A stretch of 64,000 bases of DNA from the NCBI RefSeq assembly GCF_001280565.1, contig NZ_LGRO01000001.1:2852001-2916000 (forward strand). The letters are read 5' to 3'. The notes under the pieces were generated by a model that was not told where the DNA came from, did no database searches, and worked only from the letters and a program-made list of their open reading frames with translations. The stretch's first letter is position 1. Each line of letters opens with the position of its first letter. Positions 34,565 through 51,071 of this stretch are shown here, piece after piece. This stretch comes from Sulfobacillus thermosulfidooxidans (lineage in GTDB: Bacteria; Bacillota; Sulfobacillia; Sulfobacillales; Sulfobacillaceae). The position numbers and the translations under genes are program-made.

Positions 34565-35485
34565 TTACGAGTGCAAGTACTCCCGCCATGACGTGTCTTC
34601 CATCATCGGGCTCCATAAAGTGACGTATGGTCCTCTAATCAATGTCTTTAATACCTTATCATGCTGAGCTCGGTAACGCGTGTTGACGACCACTCGGGAG
34701 ATGCCGAATTGGGCGGTAGCGAGGTCTTGCCATTCCATGTGCACGACATACTCCCGGGGTGTCGGAGCGGCTTGTAAGGTCTCAAAGTTTCCTGCTTGTG
34801 CACGCGGTGGATAATCGCCAAGGGTTTGCAACGCTTGATGGATTCCTTCGGGCGTTAGCTGCAAACTACCAATGGCTGATGCGCCAATTTGCTTCAGGAC
34901 CATATAGCCGAGGAATCCCGGAGCCTTCTTAAACATTTGCATAAGATCTTCTATAGCCGATTCGAAGGCGTTTTCCATCCCGGGAATAATGGTGTGCTCA
35001 GATGCGGCAATGACACGTTGGCCATAGGGCATCGATACCGCAGGAACAGGTTGTCCTGCCATGAACTGACTGCCTAATGTCGCGGGCACATCTGTTAACG
35101 CCATGTTTTCGGGCAAGTCACTGCTGACAATTTCATAAATTGGTTCCCATGGACCTTCAATGACCATGCCTAAACAACTGGAGCATAGCCGGAAAATCGA
35201 ATCAAATTGCTGTACATGCATTTCCTCGTGGTCTTCCCACCGCTTCCACATGGTGTATTGGCGAATTCCAAGAGGATTGAGAGTTTGGCGCATGTCCATT
35301 TCGGCTCCGCCATATCGTCCTCCCATAGGGAAAACACCAATTTGCACATGGTTTTGAAACCCAACAAACCCGGAATGATTGGCTGTGACCATACAAACCT
35401 TGGGACCCACCGATTCGAATAGCCGAAAAGAATCGGGGTGATTTGCAACTTTTGCGCTATTAATCGCGATAAAAGGTTTTGGCAT
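34565..35485 (-). CDS. sor: Sulfur oxygenase reductase
   Basis: 306 residues from ATG 35485 (AAAGGAG upstream). The cytoplasmic enzyme disproportionates elemental sulfur with O2 to sulfite, thiosulfate and sulfide without cofactors. All known key residues of the Acidianus enzyme sit at the same numbers: Cys31 (PKVCMVTA) that binds the persulfide, iron ligands His86 and His90 (WEDHEEMH) and Glu114 (GPWEPIYE), and Cys101/Cys104 (FRLCSSCLG). Length equals that of archaeal SORs (about 308). The enzyme forms a 24-subunit hollow sphere in characterised species. It is a single gene, divergent from the hydrogenase operon. Confidence 0.96.
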   Translation of the reverse strand: MPKPFIAINSAKVANHPDSFRLFESVGPKVCMVTANHSGFVGFQNHVQIGVFPMGGRYGGAEMDMRQTLNPLGIRQYTMWKRWEDHEEMHVQQFDSIFRLCSSCLGMVIEGPWEPIYEIVSSDLPENMALTDVPATLGSQFMAGQPVPAVSMPYGQRVIAASEHTIIPGMENAFESAIEDLMQMFKKAPGFLGYMVLKQIGASAIGSLQLTPEGIHQALQTLGDYPPRAQAGNFETLQAAPTPREYVVHMEWQDLATAQFGISRVVVNTRYRAQHDKVLKTLIRGPYVTLWSPMMEDTSWREYLHS

Positions 35486-36207: not shown

Positions 36208-37224
36208 GTGCCCGATCCGATAGTCCATGTGATATGGATTAATGCAGGCTTGAGCTGTGACGGCGATTCCGTAGGATTAACCGCGGCAACCCAGCCCAGC
36301 GTGGAAGATTTAGCGCTGGGATATTTGCCGGGAGTTCCTAATGTTCGCTTTCACTGGCCCTTAGTCGATTACGATAATGGGGATGAACTCATGGCATGGT
36401 GGTGGAAAGCCGCGAATGGTGAGCTCGACCCTTTTGTGTTAGTGGTTGAAGGTTCGATTCCCAATGAGAAGATTCATGCCGAAGGATATTGGGCGGCGAT
36501 GGGGAATAATCCCGAAACCGGTCAACCTATGACGACCAATGAATGGATTGATAAGCTGGCACCCAAAGCATGGGCGGTTTTGGCAGCCGGCACGTGCGCG
36601 AGTTATGGCGGTATCCATGCCATGCAAGGCAATCCTACGGGCGCTATGGGAATTGCGGATTATTTGGGATGGAATTGGCGATCGAAGGCGGGCGTACCCA
36701 TTGTGTGTGTGCCGGGATGCCCCATTCAACCTGATAACCTCTCCGAAACGATTCTTTACCTCCTCTATCAAGCCGCGGGATCTGCTCCCATGATTCCTCT
36801 TGACGATCAATTACGACCGCAATGGCTTTTTGGCCGGACAGTGCATCAGGGGTGTGATCGCGCTGGCTATTATGAGCAAGCCGATTTTGCCGCCGAATAT
36901 GGCTCACCCAAATGTATTGTCAAACTCGGATGCTGGGGTCCGGTTGTGAACTGCAATGTGCCCAAGCGAGGATGGATGGCGGGTATTGGGGGCTGTCCTA
37001 ACGTCGGAGGCATTTGTATCGGGTGTACCATGCCCGGCTTCCCGGACAAGTTTATGCCCTTTATGGACGAACCCCCTGGAGGAAAGATGTCGTCATCTGT
37101 CATCTCTCTCTACGGGAAATTGTTCCGGAATTTGCGTTCTGTCACCAATGACACGTTGAATCATGAACCGTCTTGGCGGCATGCCCGGGCTGAACTGACC
37201 ACAGGATATCAAAAAGTATGGTAA
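36208..37224 (+). CDS. hhyS: [NiFe] hydrogenase small subunit, group 1h type
   Basis: 338 residues from GTG 36208 (AAGGGGGGA upstream). No Tat signal peptide. The proximal-cluster motif reads INAGLSCDGDS: where most small subunits have CxxC, this has Cys17-x-x-Asp20, the Asp-ligated 4Fe-4S arrangement described for the oxygen-insensitive actinobacterial-type hydrogenase of Ralstonia. Further Fe-S ligands: GTCASYGG, VCVPGCPIQPDN, HQGCDRAGYYE, KLGCWGPVVNC, GGCPNVGGICIGCTMPGFPD. Together these mark the group 1h (former group 5) uptake enzyme that can use very low H2. First gene of the operon. Confidence 0.92.
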   Translation: MPDPIVHVIWINAGLSCDGDSVGLTAATQPSVEDLALGYLPGVPNVRFHWPLVDYDNGDELMAWWWKAANGELDPFVLVVEGSIPNEKIHAEGYWAAMGNNPETGQPMTTNEWIDKLAPKAWAVLAAGTCASYGGIHAMQGNPTGAMGIADYLGWNWRSKAGVPIVCVPGCPIQPDNLSETILYLLYQAAGSAPMIPLDDQLRPQWLFGRTVHQGCDRAGYYEQADFAAEYGSPKCIVKLGCWGPVVNCNVPKRGWMAGIGGCPNVGGICIGCTMPGFPDKFMPFMDEPPGGKMSSSVISLYGKLFRNLRSVTNDTLNHEPSWRHARAELTTGYQKVW

Positions 37225-37243: not shown

Positions 37244-39055
37244 TTGGCTACAACGGAAGACAAAGTGAGCAGTCAACAGACAGGCACCAATGCGAAACTT
37301 GTCGAAATGGCGTGGGATCCGATTACCCGCATTGTCGGAAGCTTAGGGATATATACCAAAATCGACTTTGAGAACCGTGAAGTGGTGGAATGTCATAGTA
37401 CGTCTTCGATTTTTCGAGGCTACAGTATTTTCATGAAAGGCAAAGATCCCCGGGATGCCCATTTTATCACCAGTCGTATTTGTGGCATTTGTGGGGACAA
37501 TCATGCCACTTGCGCTGTTTATGCGCAAAATATGGCGTTTGGGGTCAAACCGCCATCGCTGGCCGAGTGGATTATCAATCTTGGAGAAGCTGCGGAATAT
37601 ATGTTTGACCACAACATCTTCCAAGAAAACTTGGTGGGTGTCGATTTTTGTGAGCAAATGGTCCGGGAAACCAACCCGAGTGTTTGGGCAAAAGCCCAAA
37701 AAACATCGGCTCCGCACGCTGATATTCATGGATACAAGACCATTGCCGATATCATGACGGCGCTCAATCCTTTTACGGGGGAATTATACCGCGAGGCGCT
37801 TCAGGTAAGCCGATACACCCGGGAGATGTTTATCTTAATGGAAGGTCGGCATGTTCATCCCTCCACGTTATATCCCGGTGGTGTGGGAACTGTGCCGACC
37901 ATCCAGTTATTTACCGACTACATGACAAGGCTCATGAAATACATCGACTTCATGAAGAAAATGGTTCCTCTTCATGATGACCTTTTTGATTTCTTCTACG
38001 AGGCATTGCCCGGCTATGAGGCCGTCGGGCAACGCCGGATTTTGCTCGGCTGTTGGGGCTCCTTCCAAGATCCCAATGCCTGCGATTACGATTATAAGCA
38101 TATGACCGACTGGGGCCGCAAGATGTTTGTGACGCCGGGTATCGTCGTCGACGGCAAACTCCTGACCACGGATTTGGTCGAAATTAATCTCGGGATGCGC
38201 ATTTTGTTGGGATCGTCCTATTATGGCAGTTGGGAAAATGAAGAACGCTTTGTGACCCATGATCCCTTAGGCAATCCCGTTGATAAGAATCACCCGTGGA
38301 ATCAAACCACGATTCCGAAGCCGCAAAAACGCGACTTTAACAAGAACTACAGTTGGGTGATGTCGCCCAGGTGGTATGACAAATCCTCGGGCGATCATCT
38401 CGCATTAGATACCGGGGGCGGGGCCATTGCTCGTTTATGGGCCACCGCACTCGCGGGACTTGTGGATATGGGGACGGTGAAAGCTACGGGTCACTCCGTC
38501 CAAATTAATTTCCCCAAGACGGCATCGTTTGGCGAAATGCAACTGGAATGGAAAATCCCGAAGTGGAGTAACGCGATTGAACGAGACCGAGCCCGCACGT
38601 ACTTCCAAGCCTATGCGGCAGGGGCGGCCCTATACTTCTTAGATCAAGCGATAGCTGAAGTAAGAGCTGGCCATACCACGGTATGGGAACCTTTCAAAGT
38701 GCCAGAAGAGGCTATCGGCTGCGGATTCCATGAAGCTGTGCGGGGCGTGCTGTCGCATCATGTCGTCATTCGTGACGGGAAAATTGCGAACTATCACCCC
38801 TATCCTCCCACGCCCTGGAATGCCAATCCCCGGGACATTTACGGGACTCCGGGACCGTATGAAGATGCGGTGCAAGGCACACCCATTTTCGAAGAAAATG
38901 GACCGGATTCTTTCAAAGGCATAGATATTATGCGCGCTGTCCGGAGCTTTGATCCCTGTTTGCCTTGTGGCGTGCATATGTATGTGGGCAATGGCAAAAC
39001 CGTTGAGGTGAATCATTCTCCCACTTATGGTGTCGGCTGTGCCCCTGGAGAGTAA
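37244..39055 (+). CDS. hhyL: [NiFe] hydrogenase large subunit, group 1h type
   Basis: 603 residues from TTG 37244 (GGGAGG upstream). The two Ni-Fe site motifs are intact: L1 RICGICGDNHATC near residue 80 and L2 FDPCLPCGVHMYVG at the end. A C-terminal extension of about 20 residues follows L2 (ending SPTYGVGCAPGE); the endopeptidase encoded at 50571 presumably trims it. EMAWDPITRIVGSLGIYTKI and SSIFRGYSIFMKGKDPRDAH are typical of the group 1h branch. Oxidises H2 and passes electrons to the small subunit. Confidence 0.93.
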   Translation: MATTEDKVSSQQTGTNAKLVEMAWDPITRIVGSLGIYTKIDFENREVVECHSTSSIFRGYSIFMKGKDPRDAHFITSRICGICGDNHATCAVYAQNMAFGVKPPSLAEWIINLGEAAEYMFDHNIFQENLVGVDFCEQMVRETNPSVWAKAQKTSAPHADIHGYKTIADIMTALNPFTGELYREALQVSRYTREMFILMEGRHVHPSTLYPGGVGTVPTIQLFTDYMTRLMKYIDFMKKMVPLHDDLFDFFYEALPGYEAVGQRRILLGCWGSFQDPNACDYDYKHMTDWGRKMFVTPGIVVDGKLLTTDLVEINLGMRILLGSSYYGSWENEERFVTHDPLGNPVDKNHPWNQTTIPKPQKRDFNKNYSWVMSPRWYDKSSGDHLALDTGGGAIARLWATALAGLVDMGTVKATGHSVQINFPKTASFGEMQLEWKIPKWSNAIERDRARTYFQAYAAGAALYFLDQAIAEVRAGHTTVWEPFKVPEEAIGCGFHEAVRGVLSHHVVIRDGKIANYHPYPPTPWNANPRDIYGTPGPYEDAVQGTPIFEENGPDSFKGIDIMRAVRSFDPCLPCGVHMYVGNGKTVEVNHSPTYGVGCAPGE

Positions 39056-39140
39056 AAGCTCCCAGGATTTTTCTCACGGCATCACGCTATAGCTCAGATT
39101 GAAGGGACATGAGACATATCACGGAGAAGGAGGTGCGCAC

Positions 39141-39254
39141 ATGATCCAAATGATGTTCACGCTCGCGTTTTTAGCGCTCGTGATATGGCTAGGGAAACTC
39201 ATTTTGCAGTCATTACCGGATATGCAACGTTATGTGCGAATGCGCAATATGTAG
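39141..39254 (+). CDS. 37-aa single-span membrane protein (DUF6893-like)
   Basis: ATG 39141 has an excellent AGGAGGTG site 6-8 bases upstream, yet the gene is only 37 codons and easily missed. The peptide has one hydrophobic helix (MFTLAFLALVIWLGKLIL) followed by LPDMQRYVRMRNM, which resembles the LPDIRRYxRxRxM ending I remember for the small DUF6893 proteins beside group 1h hydrogenases. It may anchor the signal-less soluble hydrogenase to the membrane or link it to the quinone pool; that role is inferred. Sits 85 bases after hhyL, 41 before hypF. Confidence 0.75.
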   Translation: MIQMMFTLAFLALVIWLGKLILQSLPDMQRYVRMRNM

Positions 39255-39295
39255 CTCATGAAAACGGTTAAAGACGGAGTGAGGGGAGCGAGCCG

Positions 39296-41608
39296 ATGGA
39301 AGCGTATCCTGACGATCTCTTTACAGAAAGGCGACGTCTACGTATTGCCGGATTTGTGCAAGGCGTGGGATTTCGACCCTTTGTCTACCGGGCAGCCCAA
39401 CACTTAGGACTTACCGGCTGGATTTACAATGATAGTCAAGGGGTGTGCATTGAGGTCCAAGGGCCTTCATGGGCCCTGCAGCGTTTCCACGAACACTTGC
39501 TTTCTAAGACTCCGCCTTTAGCCCGTATTGACCACATTGAGGAAGATCCTGTCGCCATTCAAGTGGGAGAGCAGGACTTCGTCATTCAGCAAAGTGTCCA
39601 GGGAAAAGATCCCTTAGCATTGGTAAGACCGGATGCCTGTGTCTGCCCCGAATGTCTTCAAGAGATGCATAATCCTAAAGACCGCCGTTATCGCTATCCC
39701 TTTATTAATTGTACGAATTGTGGGCCCCGTTACACGATTATTCAAGGTGTTCCTTATGACCGGGCCATGACGACGATGGCAGGTTTTGTGATGTGTCCCG
39801 AATGCCAAAGGGAGTATGACGATCCTTTGGACCGCCGTTTTCATGCTCAACCGAATGCGTGTCCCCGTTGTGGTCCGCAGGTGGTCTTTGAGAGGGAACA
39901 AGAAATTTCTGGCGATCCTTTTCGACTATGGGCTGAAGCCATTTTGTCAGGCCAAATCGTCGCTGTCAAAGGTTTAGGAGGCTATCATTTAGCCTGCAAC
40001 CCGTTTGATGAGCAGGCTGTAAAGCGCTTACGTCAGCGCAAGCGGCGTTACGGCAAGCCCTTTGCGGTAATGGCGAAAGATCTTGAGGTGGTTGAGCGTT
40101 TGTGCCACGTCAGCGCCAGCGAAAAAGCGTTATTAGCGTCGGTCGAACGGCCTATTGTGTTATTGCAGCGGTTGGACTTCGGGTTGCTAAGCCAAGATGT
40201 GGCCGGTGCTTATCGAACTTTAGGTGTCATGCTGCCTTATACCCCACTGCACGTCTTGTTACTAGAGGCGTTAGACGGTCTGTTGCCATTACCTGTGGTT
40301 GTGATGACCAGCGGCAATTTCAGTGACGAGCCCATTGTCACCGATAACGCGGAAGCCAAAGACAGGCTCAAAACCGTGGCTGATGCTTTTGTCCATCATA
40401 ACCGACCTATCTATATCCGCTGTGACGATTCCATTGTGAAGTTAGCCGCAGACAATCATCCTCAACTATTACGGCGTTCACGGGGATACGTGCCAGACAT
40501 TATTGAAAGTGACATCCAAGGTCCCCCTCTTCTGGCTGTCGGTGGCGAACTCAAGAATACCTTTGCGTTTTACCAACAGGGCAAAGTCTATTTGAGCCAT
40601 CATTTGGGTGATCTGGAAAATATGAAGGCTTATGAAGCCTTTGAGCAAGGCATTCAGCATTTTCAGCGTCTGTTTGATTTGAAGCCTAAATATGTTGTGC
40701 ATGACTTGCATCCGGGCTACTTGTCAACGACTTTTGCCCAACAAATGGGTCTACCGACCATTGCCGTCCAGCATCATCATGCCCACGTTGCTAGTGTCAT
40801 GATGGAACATCATGTAGATGGTCCCGTCATAGGACTAGCCTTCGATGGGACCGGATATGGTCCGGACAAAACCATTTGGGGTGGAGAAGTGCTATTAGCT
40901 ACTTTATCCGGATTTGAGCGTGTAGCATCTTTAAAACCAATGCCTTTGATTGGAGGCGACCGGGCGATTAAAGAACCGTGGCGCATAGCGTCAGCACTGT
41001 TAGCTCAAATCTTTACCCGGGACAATTATCCAGAAGACCTGGCCGTGATTCAGCAAATTGGCGCTCCATGGTGGCAGGTTGATGCCTTGGCGAGAAAAAC
41101 TCACTCTTCTTTTTCTGTCTTAACATCGAGTATGGGCCGGTTATTTGATGCCGCGGGTGTCCTTATGGGGTTAGGGCCTAGGGCCAGCTATGAAGGAGAA
41201 GTGGCGATTATGTGCGAGATGGCTGTGCAAGACGAAGACGTTTCTTCTTATCCCTATGCCATTTTATGTGAAAGTCCTGGCCATTGGCGCATGGATCCAA
41301 TACCCATGATTCAAGAACTCTTGATCGATATCACCCGCCGGGAATCTTTATCTTTCATGGCGACCCGCTTTCATCAGACCATCGCTGACATGGCGGCTGA
41401 TACGGCCGATCTCGTCCATCACTATTACGGAATCGATCAGGTAGTGCTAACTGGGGGTGTCTGGCAAAACCAAGTGTTGACACGCCTTACCTTAAACCAC
41501 TTACAGGAAAGAGGATTAAAAGTGTATCTCAACCACATCGTTCCCCCCAATGACGGTGGATTAGCATTAGGACAAATTGGCATTGGGTGCATGATGGCCC
41601 GTAATTAA
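39296..41608 (+). CDS. hypF: Carbamoyltransferase HypF
   Basis: 770 residues, full length. Domains in order: acylphosphatase-like (RLRIAGFVQGVGFRPFVYRA), two zinc-finger units (CVCPECL, CTNCGP; CPECQ, CPRCGP), YrdC-like ATP domain (KGLGGYHLACNPFDEQAV), and Kae1-like carbamoyltransferase domain with the metal motif HHHAHVASVMMEH. It makes carbamoyl-adenylate from carbamoyl phosphate and loads it on HypE for CN ligand synthesis. ATG 39296 follows GAGGGGAG. Confidence 0.95.
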   Translation: MEAYPDDLFTERRRLRIAGFVQGVGFRPFVYRAAQHLGLTGWIYNDSQGVCIEVQGPSWALQRFHEHLLSKTPPLARIDHIEEDPVAIQVGEQDFVIQQSVQGKDPLALVRPDACVCPECLQEMHNPKDRRYRYPFINCTNCGPRYTIIQGVPYDRAMTTMAGFVMCPECQREYDDPLDRRFHAQPNACPRCGPQVVFEREQEISGDPFRLWAEAILSGQIVAVKGLGGYHLACNPFDEQAVKRLRQRKRRYGKPFAVMAKDLEVVERLCHVSASEKALLASVERPIVLLQRLDFGLLSQDVAGAYRTLGVMLPYTPLHVLLLEALDGLLPLPVVVMTSGNFSDEPIVTDNAEAKDRLKTVADAFVHHNRPIYIRCDDSIVKLAADNHPQLLRRSRGYVPDIIESDIQGPPLLAVGGELKNTFAFYQQGKVYLSHHLGDLENMKAYEAFEQGIQHFQRLFDLKPKYVVHDLHPGYLSTTFAQQMGLPTIAVQHHHAHVASVMMEHHVDGPVIGLAFDGTGYGPDKTIWGGEVLLATLSGFERVASLKPMPLIGGDRAIKEPWRIASALLAQIFTRDNYPEDLAVIQQIGAPWWQVDALARKTHSSFSVLTSSMGRLFDAAGVLMGLGPRASYEGEVAIMCEMAVQDEDVSSYPYAILCESPGHWRMDPIPMIQELLIDITRRESLSFMATRFHQTIADMAADTADLVHHYYGIDQVVLTGGVWQNQVLTRLTLNHLQERGLKVYLNHIVPPNDGGLALGQIGIGCMMARN

Positions 41609-47045: not shown

Positions 47046-47099
47046 TGGGACGTAAATCCCGAGAATCAAATGGCTTACAGATTAGAGGGGGGAGACATA

Positions 47100-48002
47100 A
47101 TGGACGCCATGACGACCCAGTTTGAAGCACTCGTTGAAGCGGTTGACCAACGACTCGAGTCGATAGAAAAGACCTCGGTACCTGGATTTCGTCAGCAGGT
47201 TGGTGAATTGGTGAATGATTTACTAGAAATGTACCGCATGGGATTCGAGCAAGTGATGTATTACGCCCGCTCGTATCCTGACCTGCCACAAAAATTCGCC
47301 GACGATCCCGTGTTAGGACCCTTGTTGATGATTCATAATATGCATCCACTGTCTTTTGAAGAGCGGGTTCACAAAGCTTTAGATAACGTGCGACCTTATT
47401 TAAAGACGCATGACGGCAATGTGCGATTACTTTCGGTGGAACAAGGCATTGTGAAACTCGCCTTAGAAGGGCATTGCCACGGGTGCCCGTCATCGAGGGT
47501 CACGATTAAGACAGCTATTGAACAAGAATTGATGCGCTGGGCTCCCGATATGTTAGACCTCATAGTCGAAGGGGAGGACAATGTCCTAAGCATTGATCCG
47601 GATGATGCCCGGCGGGTGGTGATTCCATTAAGCGCAGTGCAAGGAGTAACAACCGAGAATAAACGGCCCAAAGGATGGTTTCAATTAGACAACATTACCA
47701 GCTTGTTGCCCGGGCAAACGCATAAGAGCCAATTAGAGGACCATCCTCTCATTATTGCCCGTCTTGGCGACGAGTTCTTTGCCTATCACGATTTCTGTCC
47801 CCAGTGTCACCGTCTGAATGTGTTGGTTCTCATCACGAATGATGATCTATCCGCCAGTATTTTAGAATGCCAGTCGTGTCAAACGCAGTATGAGCCGAAA
47901 AAGGCAGGGCGCGCCGTGTCCCAAGCGTCGCTGCATCTAGAGCCATTGCCGCTTTTGCTTGAAGGACATACCGCGCGCATTGCCATACCTGTAGCCGAAT
48001 AG
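47100..48002 (+). CDS. NifU-like Fe-S protein with C-terminal double-CxxC domain
   Basis: 300 residues from ATG 47100 (AGGGGGGAG, 6-base spacing). An N-terminal helical part (~1-90), then a NifU C-terminal domain (VRPYLKTHDGNVRLLSVE, HCHGCPSSRVTI with CxxC), then a region around 220-280 with CPQCH and CQSC spaced as in a Rieske-like or zinc-ribbon fold (FAYHDFCPQCHRLNV, LECQSCQTQYE). Because ligands are CxxC pairs rather than CxH/CxxH, a classic 2Fe-2S Rieske centre is unlikely. Probably an Fe-S assembly or electron-transfer accessory for the hydrogenase. Confidence 0.82.
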   Translation: MDAMTTQFEALVEAVDQRLESIEKTSVPGFRQQVGELVNDLLEMYRMGFEQVMYYARSYPDLPQKFADDPVLGPLLMIHNMHPLSFEERVHKALDNVRPYLKTHDGNVRLLSVEQGIVKLALEGHCHGCPSSRVTIKTAIEQELMRWAPDMLDLIVEGEDNVLSIDPDDARRVVIPLSAVQGVTTENKRPKGWFQLDNITSLLPGQTHKSQLEDHPLIIARLGDEFFAYHDFCPQCHRLNVLVLITNDDLSASILECQSCQTQYEPKKAGRAVSQASLHLEPLPLLLEGHTARIAIPVAE

Positions 48003-48014
48003 GGAGGAAATGAT

Positions 48015-48635
48015 ATGGGACGATCGATTTTGCGTGTGAAAAATTGGGTGCGCGAAGAGCCGGTTAAGGGAGAGGATGAGGTTTGTGAAGTGTGCAATCG
48101 TCTGATTCCTGCTCACGACCACCGCCATTTATTGCGTTTACAAACGGCTCAAGTGGTTTGTGCGTGCCCACACTGTGCTCTTCTCTTTGATGCACCGGGG
48201 CAAAATCAGTATCAAACCATCCCCACTCGGATCAAGAAACTGGATAGGGCGATATTGGGTCAGGATTTTTGGGATGTTATGAAGGTTCCCGTGCATCTCG
48301 TGGGTATCATTAAACGGCGCGGGGGCCAAGCGGAGATTTTCTATCCAAGTCCGGCAGGCGCCGTCAGTGGCGGCCCCATTTCTCAAGGGTTTCTAACACC
48401 TTCCTTGCAACAGGCTTTGGGCTCTGTGAGCGATGAGGTTGAAGTCCTGCTGATCGCGGATCTTGCCGGAATGAGTGAAGGATTCCTTATCCCATTGGAC
48501 CGGTTTTATGAACTCATTGGGCTGCTCCGGCTAAGTTGGCAAGGCCTTTCCGGAGGAAATGAGGTGTCCCGCCGTATTCACCAATTCTTTGACCAATTGG
48601 CCCAACAGGCAGGAACCCGAGGAGGTCTAGTATGA
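48015..48635 (+). CDS. DUF5947-like protein, hydrogenase accessory
   Basis: 206 residues, GGGAGG upstream. N-terminal CEVCNRLIPAHDHRHLL with a second pair CACPHCALLF suggests a metal or Fe-S site of four Cys, followed by an alpha/beta domain (VPVHLVGIIKRRGGQAEIFY). It matches what I recall as DUF5947, found in group 1h hydrogenase clusters next to DUF6084. Function unassigned. Overlaps the next gene by 4 bases. Confidence 0.7.
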   Translation: MGRSILRVKNWVREEPVKGEDEVCEVCNRLIPAHDHRHLLRLQTAQVVCACPHCALLFDAPGQNQYQTIPTRIKKLDRAILGQDFWDVMKVPVHLVGIIKRRGGQAEIFYPSPAGAVSGGPISQGFLTPSLQQALGSVSDEVEVLLIADLAGMSEGFLIPLDRFYELIGLLRLSWQGLSGGNEVSRRIHQFFDQLAQQAGTRGGLV

Positions 48636-49282
48636 CGGAATCGGTTCAATTTGCCATTGATGGCGTATCATTGGTCCGCAATGCGGCGATGCCGACGCTA
48701 CAATTTCTGATTAATATTCGAACCACACCACCTGTTAATCATGTGCACGCGATGATCTTGCGCGTGCAAATACAAATCGCCCCGAGGGGCAGATCCTATT
48801 CCGAATTTGTGCAAAATCGCTTGCTGGATGTTTTTGGCACGCCCGAGAGATGGCATGAAACCATGCATAATTTTTTGTGGGCGCAATCTTCTTTGTCTGT
48901 TCCGCGCTTTGAACATCAAACCACCATCGAGTTGCCCGTTGTGTGTACCTATGATTTTGATGTGTTAGCCGTGAAATACTTACAGTCTTTGGATACCGGG
49001 ATGATTCCCATGGAATTTTTGTTTAGCGGGACGTTATTTTATCACGATGCCCAGCTGGGGGTGCAAGTGCAGCCCATTTCCTGGAATTGTGAAGCCGCTT
49101 TCCAATTACCGGTGACCATTTGGCGCGAACTCATGGCTGCTTATTATCCTCATCAGGCATGGATTCGGATTGATCAAGATCTTTTTGATCGGCTTAATCT
49201 ATTCCGCAGCCAACATGAAGTGTCCACATGGGATGATGCCTTAAGGTTACTGCTTGACCGAGAAACGGAAAGGAGATCTTAA
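48632..49282 (+). CDS. DUF6084-like protein, hydrogenase accessory
   Basis: 216 residues, ATGA overlap with the gene before. Recognisable by LRVQIQIAPRGRSYSEF, FGTPERWHETMHNFLWAQSS, ELPVVCTYDFDVLAVKYLQS, FLFSGTLFYHD and the final STWDDALRLLLDRE. This pattern agrees with DUF6084 of actinobacterial hydrogenase operons. Mostly beta-sheet by appearance; no catalytic motif. Role in assembly or electron transfer is inferred from conserved context only. Confidence 0.72.
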   Translation: MTESVQFAIDGVSLVRNAAMPTLQFLINIRTTPPVNHVHAMILRVQIQIAPRGRSYSEFVQNRLLDVFGTPERWHETMHNFLWAQSSLSVPRFEHQTTIELPVVCTYDFDVLAVKYLQSLDTGMIPMEFLFSGTLFYHDAQLGVQVQPISWNCEAAFQLPVTIWRELMAAYYPHQAWIRIDQDLFDRLNLFRSQHEVSTWDDALRLLLDRETERRS

Positions 49283-49286
49283 GTTC

Positions 49287-50267
49287 ATGAACTTATGGCA
49301 AAACACCGAAAAAATTGCTGATGCCGTGCTTTATGAAGGATATGCCTTATATCCCTATAGGCCCAGTGCCATCAAAAATCAACAGCGATGGACATTTGGA
49401 CGCATTGTTCCCGAGATTTATCACCAACGAACTCAGTCGACAGATCCCTGGTTTCGCCGGGCCACAACCTTATTACAAGCCTCCTCTTTAGCCATCACCG
49501 TGCGTTTACGCTTTTTGCAAATTGCTGAGCCGCCGCTTTCGCCAAGTTTCCCGTCCGTGCCCTGGCAACAAGCGTTGCCACGAGATTTTACCTGGACTAT
49601 TACCTCATTGCCGTGGGCCAAAACGATGGAGATCCCCTCGTCATTGGAGGAGGCGGGCGATGTGAAAAATATCGTTTTTCGCGTCGAAATTGATGGAGAT
49701 CTGTTCCGTAGCGACCCAGAGCCCGTATGGATTTTGACCACAACAATTCGCAATGTGACACCAGATATTTCGGCATTTGATGAAGCTTCAGCCCTACGGC
49801 ACTCCCTGATTGCGACGCACTGGCTTTTATCGACCGATACGGGCAAATGGATTTCATTGCTCGATCCCCCGAGCTTTCTGGAAGACACAGTGGGGGCATT
49901 AACGCAAGAGGGGGTGTGGCCCGTGTTGGCCGGTGATCAGCAAGATGGAAAAATTTGCTTGGTCTCGCCAATTATTTTGTACGATTATCCCACGATAGCA
50001 GAAAACAGTCCCGGAGATTTCTTTGATGGTGCGGAAATTGATGAAATGCTGGCACTGCGGATCATGACTTTAACCGACGAAGAAAAAAAGGAAGCAATGC
50101 GTGCCGATCCGAAAGTTCAGGCGTTATTGGAGCGTACCCAAAATCTCTCCCGTGATGATCTTTACCAATTACATGGTATGGCCTACCGCGTATCACCAAA
50201 CTCGTCCACCCCGTCTTGTGAGATAGGCGGGAAGATGAGGGATAAGGAGAATAGCCATGATGAGTGA
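49287..50267 (+). CDS. Uncharacterised hydrogenase-cluster protein
   Basis: 326 residues from ATG 49287 (AGGAGA upstream). N-terminus ADAVLYEGYALYPYRPSAIK and C-terminal half LVSPIILYDYPTIAENSPGD, FFDGAEIDEMLALRI are strongly conserved-looking blocks that I associate with hypothetical proteins of group 1h hydrogenase loci. No known domain or membrane segment is visible. The end overlaps the next gene by 11 bases. Confidence 0.75.
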   Translation: MNLWQNTEKIADAVLYEGYALYPYRPSAIKNQQRWTFGRIVPEIYHQRTQSTDPWFRRATTLLQASSLAITVRLRFLQIAEPPLSPSFPSVPWQQALPRDFTWTITSLPWAKTMEIPSSLEEAGDVKNIVFRVEIDGDLFRSDPEPVWILTTTIRNVTPDISAFDEASALRHSLIATHWLLSTDTGKWISLLDPPSFLEDTVGALTQEGVWPVLAGDQQDGKICLVSPIILYDYPTIAENSPGDFFDGAEIDEMLALRIMTLTDEEKKEAMRADPKVQALLERTQNLSRDDLYQLHGMAYRVSPNSSTPSCEIGGKMRDKENSHDE

Positions 50268-50574
50268 AAGAGATGAAGCGTCAAATCCCTTTGATTTTTG
50301 GCAAGATGCCAAAGAGGCTCCTATCAAGGCTTTCTTAGACGGTCGAGCACTTCATCCCGGAGCGCACGTTCTGCTCCATCCCAAAAAGCATCAGGATATT
50401 TTTGATGCCGTGCTGGCGGGCAAGCTGGCGACGGTGGAGTCTATTCAAGAGGACTGGGAAGGGCGTATTTATGTCGTTGTCACCGTCGACGAAGATCCTG
50501 GCCGTGATTTGGGTCAAGAACAATTGGTGGGGCACCGTTTCTTCTTTGATTTGGATGAGGTGTCGTGGCCATGA
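50257..50574 (+). CDS. Uncharacterised 105-aa hydrogenase-cluster protein
   Basis: 105 residues, ATGATG start behind AAGGAGA and overlapping the preceding gene. The core GAHVLLHPKKHQDIFDAVLA, GKLATVESIQEDWEGRIYVV, VDEDPGRDLGQ and HRFFFDLDEV is compact and beta-rich, like small proteins encoded just before the hydrogenase protease in related clusters. Function unknown. Overlaps the protease gene by 4 bases. Confidence 0.75.
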   Translation: MMSERDEASNPFDFWQDAKEAPIKAFLDGRALHPGAHVLLHPKKHQDIFDAVLAGKLATVESIQEDWEGRIYVVVTVDEDPGRDLGQEQLVGHRFFFDLDEVSWP

Positions 50575-51071
50575 CCCCTTCTATGGAACCGGCCATTTTG
50601 GTTGCCGGGATTGGGAATATTTTTTTAGGCGATGACGGATTTGGAGTCGAAGTCATCAGACGTTTGATTGGGCGACCCTCTCTCATGCCGATGTTGGTAT
50701 TTCAGGATTTTGGTATTCGCAGTGTCGATCTCGTCTATGCCTTGCATAAACCTTGGAAAGCCGTGATTTTGGTGGATGCGTATGCTCATGGAGAGAAACC
50801 GGGACATTTACAAGTTATTCATATCACCGAGGAGGATATTCCCACGTCAGCTCCGGTGATGGATGGTCATAGTCTTAATCCCTTAATCGTCCTGGTCATG
50901 GCAAAACAGCAAGTTCCTGATCTTCCTCCCGTTTATCTCGTGGGTTGTCAACCCCTGACATTTGGCCCTGAAGAAGGGTTGATGGAGCTTAGTGCTCCGG
51001 TTGAGGCGGCAATAGAGGGGGCGTGCCATCTCATTACCACCTTAGGACATCAATTGGCACAAGAAGAATAA
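50571..51071 (+). CDS. Hydrogenase maturation endopeptidase
   Basis: 166 residues from ATG 50571 (ATGA overlap with previous stop). Family motif VAGIGNIFLGDDGFGVEVI with the nickel-sensing acidic residue, VDAYAHG, and the later MDGHSLNPLIVL with a conserved His. It cleaves the C-terminal extension of the large subunit after Ni insertion, closing the active site. Of the HycI/HupD/HoxW type. Confidence 0.9.
   Translation: MTPSMEPAILVAGIGNIFLGDDGFGVEVIRRLIGRPSLMPMLVFQDFGIRSVDLVYALHKPWKAVILVDAYAHGEKPGHLQVIHITEEDIPTSAPVMDGHSLNPLIVLVMAKQQVPDLPPVYLVGCQPLTFGPEEGLMELSAPVEAAIEGACHLITTLGHQLAQEE

Follow-up and report, generated by a model that had tools for sequence, protein, structure and literature searches.

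The window examined here is a 64,000-nucleotide stretch of the genome of Sulfobacillus thermosulfidooxidans. On its forward strand, an open reading frame (ORF) of 37 codons plus a stop codon (translation MIQMMFTLAFLALVIWLGKLILQSLPDMQRYVRMRNM) lies between hhyL, the large-subunit gene of a hydrogenase, and the maturation gene hypF. This mini-ORF starts 85 nucleotides past the hhyL stop codon (39055) and ends 41 nucleotides ahead of the hypF ATG (39296). With a large subunit that is 82% identical to the Cupriavidus necator enzyme and matches Protein Data Bank (PDB) entry 5AA5 over the full length, the hydrogenase of the window belongs to group 1h of the [NiFe]-hydrogenases (HhySL). An original prediction, made from the letters of the window, had read the mini-ORF as an overlooked membrane gene with a perfect Shine–Dalgarno sequence and one hydrophobic helix, and had proposed that it encodes a tiny anchor, tethering the enzyme or touching quinones, for a hydrogenase with neither a twin-arginine (Tat) signal nor other membrane subunits. 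The sequence is a member of a known, functionless Pfam family, DUF6893 (PF21833), which travels with this atmospheric-hydrogen enzyme in at least seven bacterial phyla.

The Shine–Dalgarno sequence of the mini-ORF is indeed perfect and, with an ATG 4–9 bases behind it, unique: the pattern AAGGAGGT-N4–9-ATG occurs once in the 64-kilobase (kb) window, against 0.2 occurrences expected. Among 1164 window frames (start to stop, 30–60 amino acids, both strands), the mini-ORF alone has both a near-perfect Shine–Dalgarno sequence and 17 consecutive residues of strong hydrophobicity. A Shine–Dalgarno match of at least four bases precedes 80 of 83 family members, whose starts were chosen partly by this match. 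Across positions 38950–39450 we found no promoter-like or terminator-like sites, so the mini-ORF is probably read together with hhySL and hypF.

The match to PF21833 reaches 50.4 bits (E = 2.2 × 10−13), about twice the gathering score of 24.6, and aligns residues 6–37 on all 32 profile positions. The mini-ORF has the short length, hydrophobic helix and C-terminal PDxxRYxRxRxM of the collected DUF6893 members, of which 59 of 64 match the family when each is scanned singly. No NCBIfam model matches it, and a PDB search with the mini-protein returned no meaningful chain match. The nearest genome with the locus, from the same genus (G151), encodes an identical protein even though 8 of 111 coding bases differ (around 7%); the ribosome site is kept there, and part of the spacer ahead of that site has diverged. 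Farther away but within the same order, G174 (locus L014) encodes a 64% identical protein, in the same place after hhyL. The pooled ratio of nonsynonymous to synonymous polymorphism (pN/pS) is 0.25 over 25 close member pairs, which are not independent of each other. We place the mini-ORF under purifying selection because the protein of its nearest relative is unchanged despite the 7% change in DNA, and because of this pN/pS. The same two results, together with family-wide conservation and a stop codon fixed behind the terminal Met, make it scarcely credible that the mini-ORF is an untranslated by-product of spacer DNA. Homology, selection and the Pfam match together establish, at the level of sequence, the real membrane gene that had been predicted between hhyL and hypF.

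That the gene had been overlooked is true in part. It is often absent from gene tables, including those of C. necator pHG1, Kitasatospora and Streptomyces fungicidicus (PLSDB tables, which are incomplete by design); the family itself was already in Pfam, where the entry reads ‘family of unknown function’. DUF6893 is not named in any paper of the open-licence library searched, although an earlier mention elsewhere, for instance in subscription papers on C. necator or Mycobacterium smegmatis, is possible. Within the limits of that library, what is new is that DUF6893 accompanies group 1h hydrogenases almost universally and specifically, and that no other protein of their cluster is clearly a membrane protein.

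Table 1. Features of the hydrogenase cluster in the window and of the mini-ORF within it
Feature	Position	Strand	Basis
hhyS, group 1h small subunit	36208–37224	+	Pfam; 72% identical to C. necator; hydropathy
hhyL, group 1h large subunit	37244–39055	+	82% identical to C. necator enzyme; PDB 5AA5 match over its length
Shine–Dalgarno sequence AAGGAGGT	39127–39134	+	ATG next at 39141; kept in nearest relative genome
DUF6893 mini-protein gene, candidate group 1h hydrogenase membrane subunit	39141–39254	+	Pfam PF21833, synteny, co-occurrence
Predicted membrane helix, codons 4–22	39150–39206	+	Kyte–Doolittle 19-residue mean 2.27
Conserved C-terminal tail PDMQRYVRMRNM, codons 26–37, predicted cytoplasmic	39216–39251	+	R, Y and terminal M nearly invariant
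hypF	39296–41608	+	Sequence and relatives
HhyE-type NifU/Rieske-like protein	47070–48002	+	Pfam NifU; homologue in relatives
DUF5947 protein of hhy cluster	48015–48635	+	
DUF6084 protein of hhy cluster	48632–49282	+	
Two ORFs (337 and 105 amino acids) corresponding to one protein of around 470 amino acids elsewhere	49254–50574	+	Match to other hhy clusters
Hydrogenase maturation protease (HycI family)	50565–51071	+	

Across genomes, DUF6893 follows the group 1h enzyme. Among 41 relatives, hhyL is present in exactly three and DUF6893 in the same three, each time right after hhyL. In a 149-genome sample of the phylum, DUF6893 occurs only in the genome of the window, and it occurs in none of 14 control genomes. 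Searches of 296 actinomycete genomes found DUF6893 in 48, hhyL in 56 and both in 45 (Fisher P = 6 × 10−39), and those of 301 Chloroflexota genomes found DUF6893 in 24, group 1h hhyL in 26 and both in 22 (Fisher P = 3 × 10−27); these P values assume that genomes are independent, which they are not, and with at most 25 candidates per genome scored in the large samples, some absences may be missed copies. The gene nearly always lies 1.5–4.7 kb past hhyL and in the same orientation: 43 of the 50 actinomycete copies lie 1.5–4.4 kb downstream on that strand, and 19 distances taken from Chloroflexota tables span 3.7–4.7 kb. Six Chloroflexota genomes that have only a 38–47% identical large subunit, of another hydrogenase subgroup, have no DUF6893, which led us to reject the idea that the family tracks hydrogenases in general.

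We surveyed 88 hhy loci from Bacillota, Actinomycetota, Chloroflexota, Acidobacteriota, Pseudomonadota, Verrucomicrobiota and Planctomycetota. Eighty loci that were fetched with HhyL as bait are blind to copies away from hydrogenases, which the unbiased genome searches cover. An iterated hidden Markov model finds the mini-ORF in 74 of the 88 loci; in Acidobacteria the model drifted onto an extra hydrophobic segment, and those members were kept only after the C-terminal tail had been read. In eight of the 14 negative loci (L038, L040, L044, L046, L049, L051, L055 and L078), the contig stops before or within the stretch where the gene usually lies. Weaker copies bearing the tail motif are present in L008, L053 and L066, a diverged copy in L011, and for L048 a copy lies on another stretch of the same genome. 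Only in L086, where hhyS reads in three pieces, was no copy found among the 88. Loci were also read in nine actinomycete genomes that have a group 1h enzyme (HhyL at least 70% identical) and no Pfam match. Seven of these loci (L105, L106, L107, L108, L111, L112 and L113) contain a diverged cluster ORF, with a hydrophobic helix and then a related tail; in the other two (L109 and L110), no DUF6893-like ORF was found in the loci read.

Genomes with DUF6893 and no detected hhyL are few. The actinomycetes G215 and G234 have weak matches, and two Chloroflexota genomes fall into this class. Another actinomycete, G290, was rejected as a true exception, as it has a decayed hhy cluster with an internal deletion (L114, 5431–6334). 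There, hhyL has been deleted, fragments of hhyS and of the 470-amino-acid gene are left and most structural neighbours are lost; DUF6893, the protease gene and hyp genes remain. Most apparent exceptions are thus diverged copies, ending contigs or a cluster that lost hhyL.

The position right after hhyL is specific to the order to which the window belongs. Elsewhere, DUF6893 usually lies beside the maturation protease gene, at a site between that gene or the gene for the 470-amino-acid protein and the hyp genes, and in Verrucomicrobiota it precedes hhyS. In two verrucomicrobial genomes (L124 and L125) without hhyE, a reading frame ending ...VIPSFPGFVRYLRIRQM lies directly before hhyS; the two share helix and tail, and the ATG of L125 is out of frame in L124. 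We had considered that Methylacidiphilum-like clusters lack DUF6893, and dropped this after the diverged copy before hhyS was found. DUF6893 accompanies hhySL in essentially every lineage and is missing where group 1h is missing, apart from a few extra copies elsewhere. Co-occurrence and synteny across phyla strongly support the assignment of the mini-protein to the group 1h hydrogenase.

DUF6893 members are mostly 33–39 residues long. Kyte–Doolittle hydropathy and AlphaFold2 agree on the single hydrophobic helix that had been predicted; AlphaFold2 gives one continuous helix over residues 2–36 with a predicted local distance difference test score of 91, which for a 37-residue peptide says little beyond helicity, from an alignment that left out five rows from plasmid records. 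The tail motif, P-D-I-x-R-Y-L-R-I-R-x-M, is almost invariant and stops at the stop codon. Counted from the C terminus, 81 of the 82 members have Met at −1 and 81 have Tyr at −7; 80 have Arg at −8, 79 have an acidic residue (Asp or Glu) at −11, and 64 have Pro at −12. A stop codon nearly fixed right behind the Met suggests that the free C terminus is bound by a partner. The mean net charge is +3.0 on the C side and +0.7 on the N side, and the C side is the more positive in 68 of 82 members, which by the positive-inside rule suggests that the tail faces the cytoplasm.

Both premises of the proposed anchor hold in the window. HhyS has no Tat signal at its N terminus and no membrane helix (sequence and hydropathy), the hhy cluster has no cytochrome b gene, and hydropathy detects no clear membrane helix in any other cluster product; HypF, which is known to be soluble, comes nearest. 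The lack of a Tat signal and of cytochrome b has likewise been reported for the Sulfobacillus group 5 (now 1h) enzymes (PMC4378227), and group 1h enzymes are described as being without cytochrome b (PMC6883350). Group 1h hydrogenases are nevertheless membrane-associated, with no known anchor (PMC13332983; PMC7174314; PMC6883350). This gap extends over mycobacteria and rhodococci (PMC6883350; PMC13332983) and Sulfobacillus (PMC4378227), and a paper of July 2026 reports that still no anchoring subunit has been identified (PMC13332983). For Methylacidiphilum, a partner of the group 1h enzyme was suggested by the authors, who measured a Michaelis constant of 140 nM on membranes versus 300 nM for the purified enzyme; high affinity seems to need membrane association (PMC7174314).

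The group 1h enzyme is associated with membranes, and DUF6893 alone among the proteins of its cluster has a clear membrane helix, which makes it the best anchor candidate. We consider it rather probable, with appreciable doubt, that DUF6893 serves the group 1h hydrogenase as a dedicated mini-subunit, a tether that presents it to the membrane and the quinone pool. Judged by charge, the single helix would span the cytoplasmic membrane with its N terminus outside. The short basic tail, PDxxRYxRxRxM, would reach into the cytoplasm and dock on soluble HhySL or a HhyE partner, and the docked tail would keep the site where electrons leave the enzyme at the membrane, from where they may pass to the quinone pool. 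The verrucomicrobial clusters without HhyE, which still hold a copy directly before hhyS, support such a tether. Of the anchor originally predicted, the association with the hydrogenase is thus borne out by co-occurrence and synteny, and tethering is the best interpretation of it.

Several observations weigh against tethering. For the C. necator enzyme, a cytoplasmic location and a low affinity have been described (PMC7174314), although its hhy cluster carries DUF6893. The C. necator crystal structure 5AA5, the sole solved large subunit close to HhyL, has no chain that matches the mini-protein. Some members have basic N-terminal extensions, which make their topology uncertain, and in a few cases an extra copy has no hydrogenase structural gene near it. 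Finally, the maturation protease gene adjoins DUF6893, upstream in 51 of 78 cases and downstream in 20 of 78, which would fit a role in assembly too. An assembly or maturation factor, absent from the finished enzyme, is the main alternative; it might bring either the immature large subunit or the machinery that matures it to the membrane, or aid the dedicated protease. The protease gene is the direct neighbour in most loci and hypF adjoins the mini-ORF in the window. However, the mini-protein is of a membrane-bound type whereas the hyp and protease proteins are soluble, the gene has no single fixed neighbour (compare this order with Verrucomicrobia), and other hydrogenases that have a dedicated maturation protease are not known to need such a mini-protein. 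We regard an assembly factor of this kind as unlikely.

Respiratory complexes are commonly modulated by single-helix mini-proteins, for example CydX. By analogy, DUF6893 could be a small regulator, co-expressed with the hydrogenase, that binds a membrane oxidase or dehydrogenase and adjusts electron flow during H2 oxidation; the rare copies away from hydrogenase genes would suit such a role. Its almost one-to-one association with group 1h, in phyla whose respiratory chains differ, instead indicates the hydrogenase itself as the partner, and we find a regulator quite improbable.

As a membrane partner of the hydrogenase, DUF6893 would differ both from a cytochrome b and from a HucM-like stalk. 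Group 1d membrane-bound hydrogenases are Tat-exported and their anchor is a multi-helix haem protein; the DUF6893 helix, by contrast, is a separate tiny protein and the group 1h hydrogenase is without an export signal. The likeness to the group 1d cytochrome b is one of role, as that subunit anchors the enzyme and passes electrons to quinone (PMC6883350). HhyE, a NifU-domain iron–sulfur protein encoded with hhySL, has been proposed to supply the missing connection with the respiratory chain (PMC6883350). By hydropathy HhyE has no membrane helix, and it is absent from L124 and L125, which keep a DUF6893-like ORF. We know of no sequence relation between DUF6893 and HucM of the group 2a hydrogenase Huc from M. 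smegmatis. What they would share is the role of a non-catalytic subunit that joins a high-affinity hydrogenase to the membrane (PMC10017518). HucM is a long protein whose amphipathic coiled-coil C terminus forms a tube, whereas the mini-protein has 37 residues and one hydrophobic helix.

Several copies of the mini-protein might form a hydrophobic gate through which quinone reaches the small subunit, in the manner of the HucM tube of Huc. Such a gate would extend the tether rather than exclude it, and our degrees of confidence in the readings are not mutually exclusive. A gate would fit the hydrophobic helix, the lack of cytochrome b in group 1h (PMC6883350) and the invariant tail, which could lie close to the distal cluster. 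Against it, no cofactor ligand pattern is visible in the mini-protein, and HucM is different, larger and peripheral at the membrane (PMC10017518). We advance the gate tentatively, doubting it more than we favour it. The same reserve applies to its fullest form, in which DUF6893 would be an obligatory third Hhy subunit whose invariant RY...M tail locks beside the distal iron–sulfur cluster, and whose membrane oligomer gives quinone direct access and so sets the high apparent affinity for H2, an affinity that falls once the enzyme is taken off the membrane.

Group 1h hydrogenases are a main biological sink for atmospheric H2, and it is their mode of membrane attachment that is in question. A small, conserved gene of 33–39 residues in mycobacteria, C. 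necator and methanotrophs is easy to delete or tag, which makes the anchor question directly testable. The candidate role would give an orphan Pfam family a function, and the gene is a further marker of hhy clusters, one that gene tables often miss.

Two of the extra copies were read in their surroundings. One, on a Mycobacterium intracellulare plasmid (L104, 8332–8523), lies beside phosphoribulokinase and fructose-bisphosphatase genes, and the other (L115, 5097–5939) lies behind a PAS histidine kinase; both extend some residues beyond the usual terminal Met. Acidobacteria encode a longer DUF6893-like protein (65–80 amino acids), with an extra linker and the same PDxxRYLKLRxM end, and short and long forms occur in tandem in L032 (16829–17369) and L036 (15685–16505). 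Acidobacterial loci also contain an orphan second hydrogenase small-subunit gene, 3–7 kb upstream of hhySL (L070, L029, L030, L034, L035, L036, L039 and L042). In L070 (5041–9967), a DUF6893 ORF comes before the orphan small-subunit gene, and a PAS histidine kinase and a LuxR-type response regulator come after it; this arrangement is possibly a system that uses a small subunit to sense H2 or redox state.

In the window itself, the protein of around 470 amino acids is split into overlapping ORFs of 337 and 105 amino acids, and it is also split in L014 of the same order. Divergent from hhyS, on the reverse strand, lies a gene for a sulfur oxygenase reductase (34565–35485; PF07682, E = 9.5 × 10−145).
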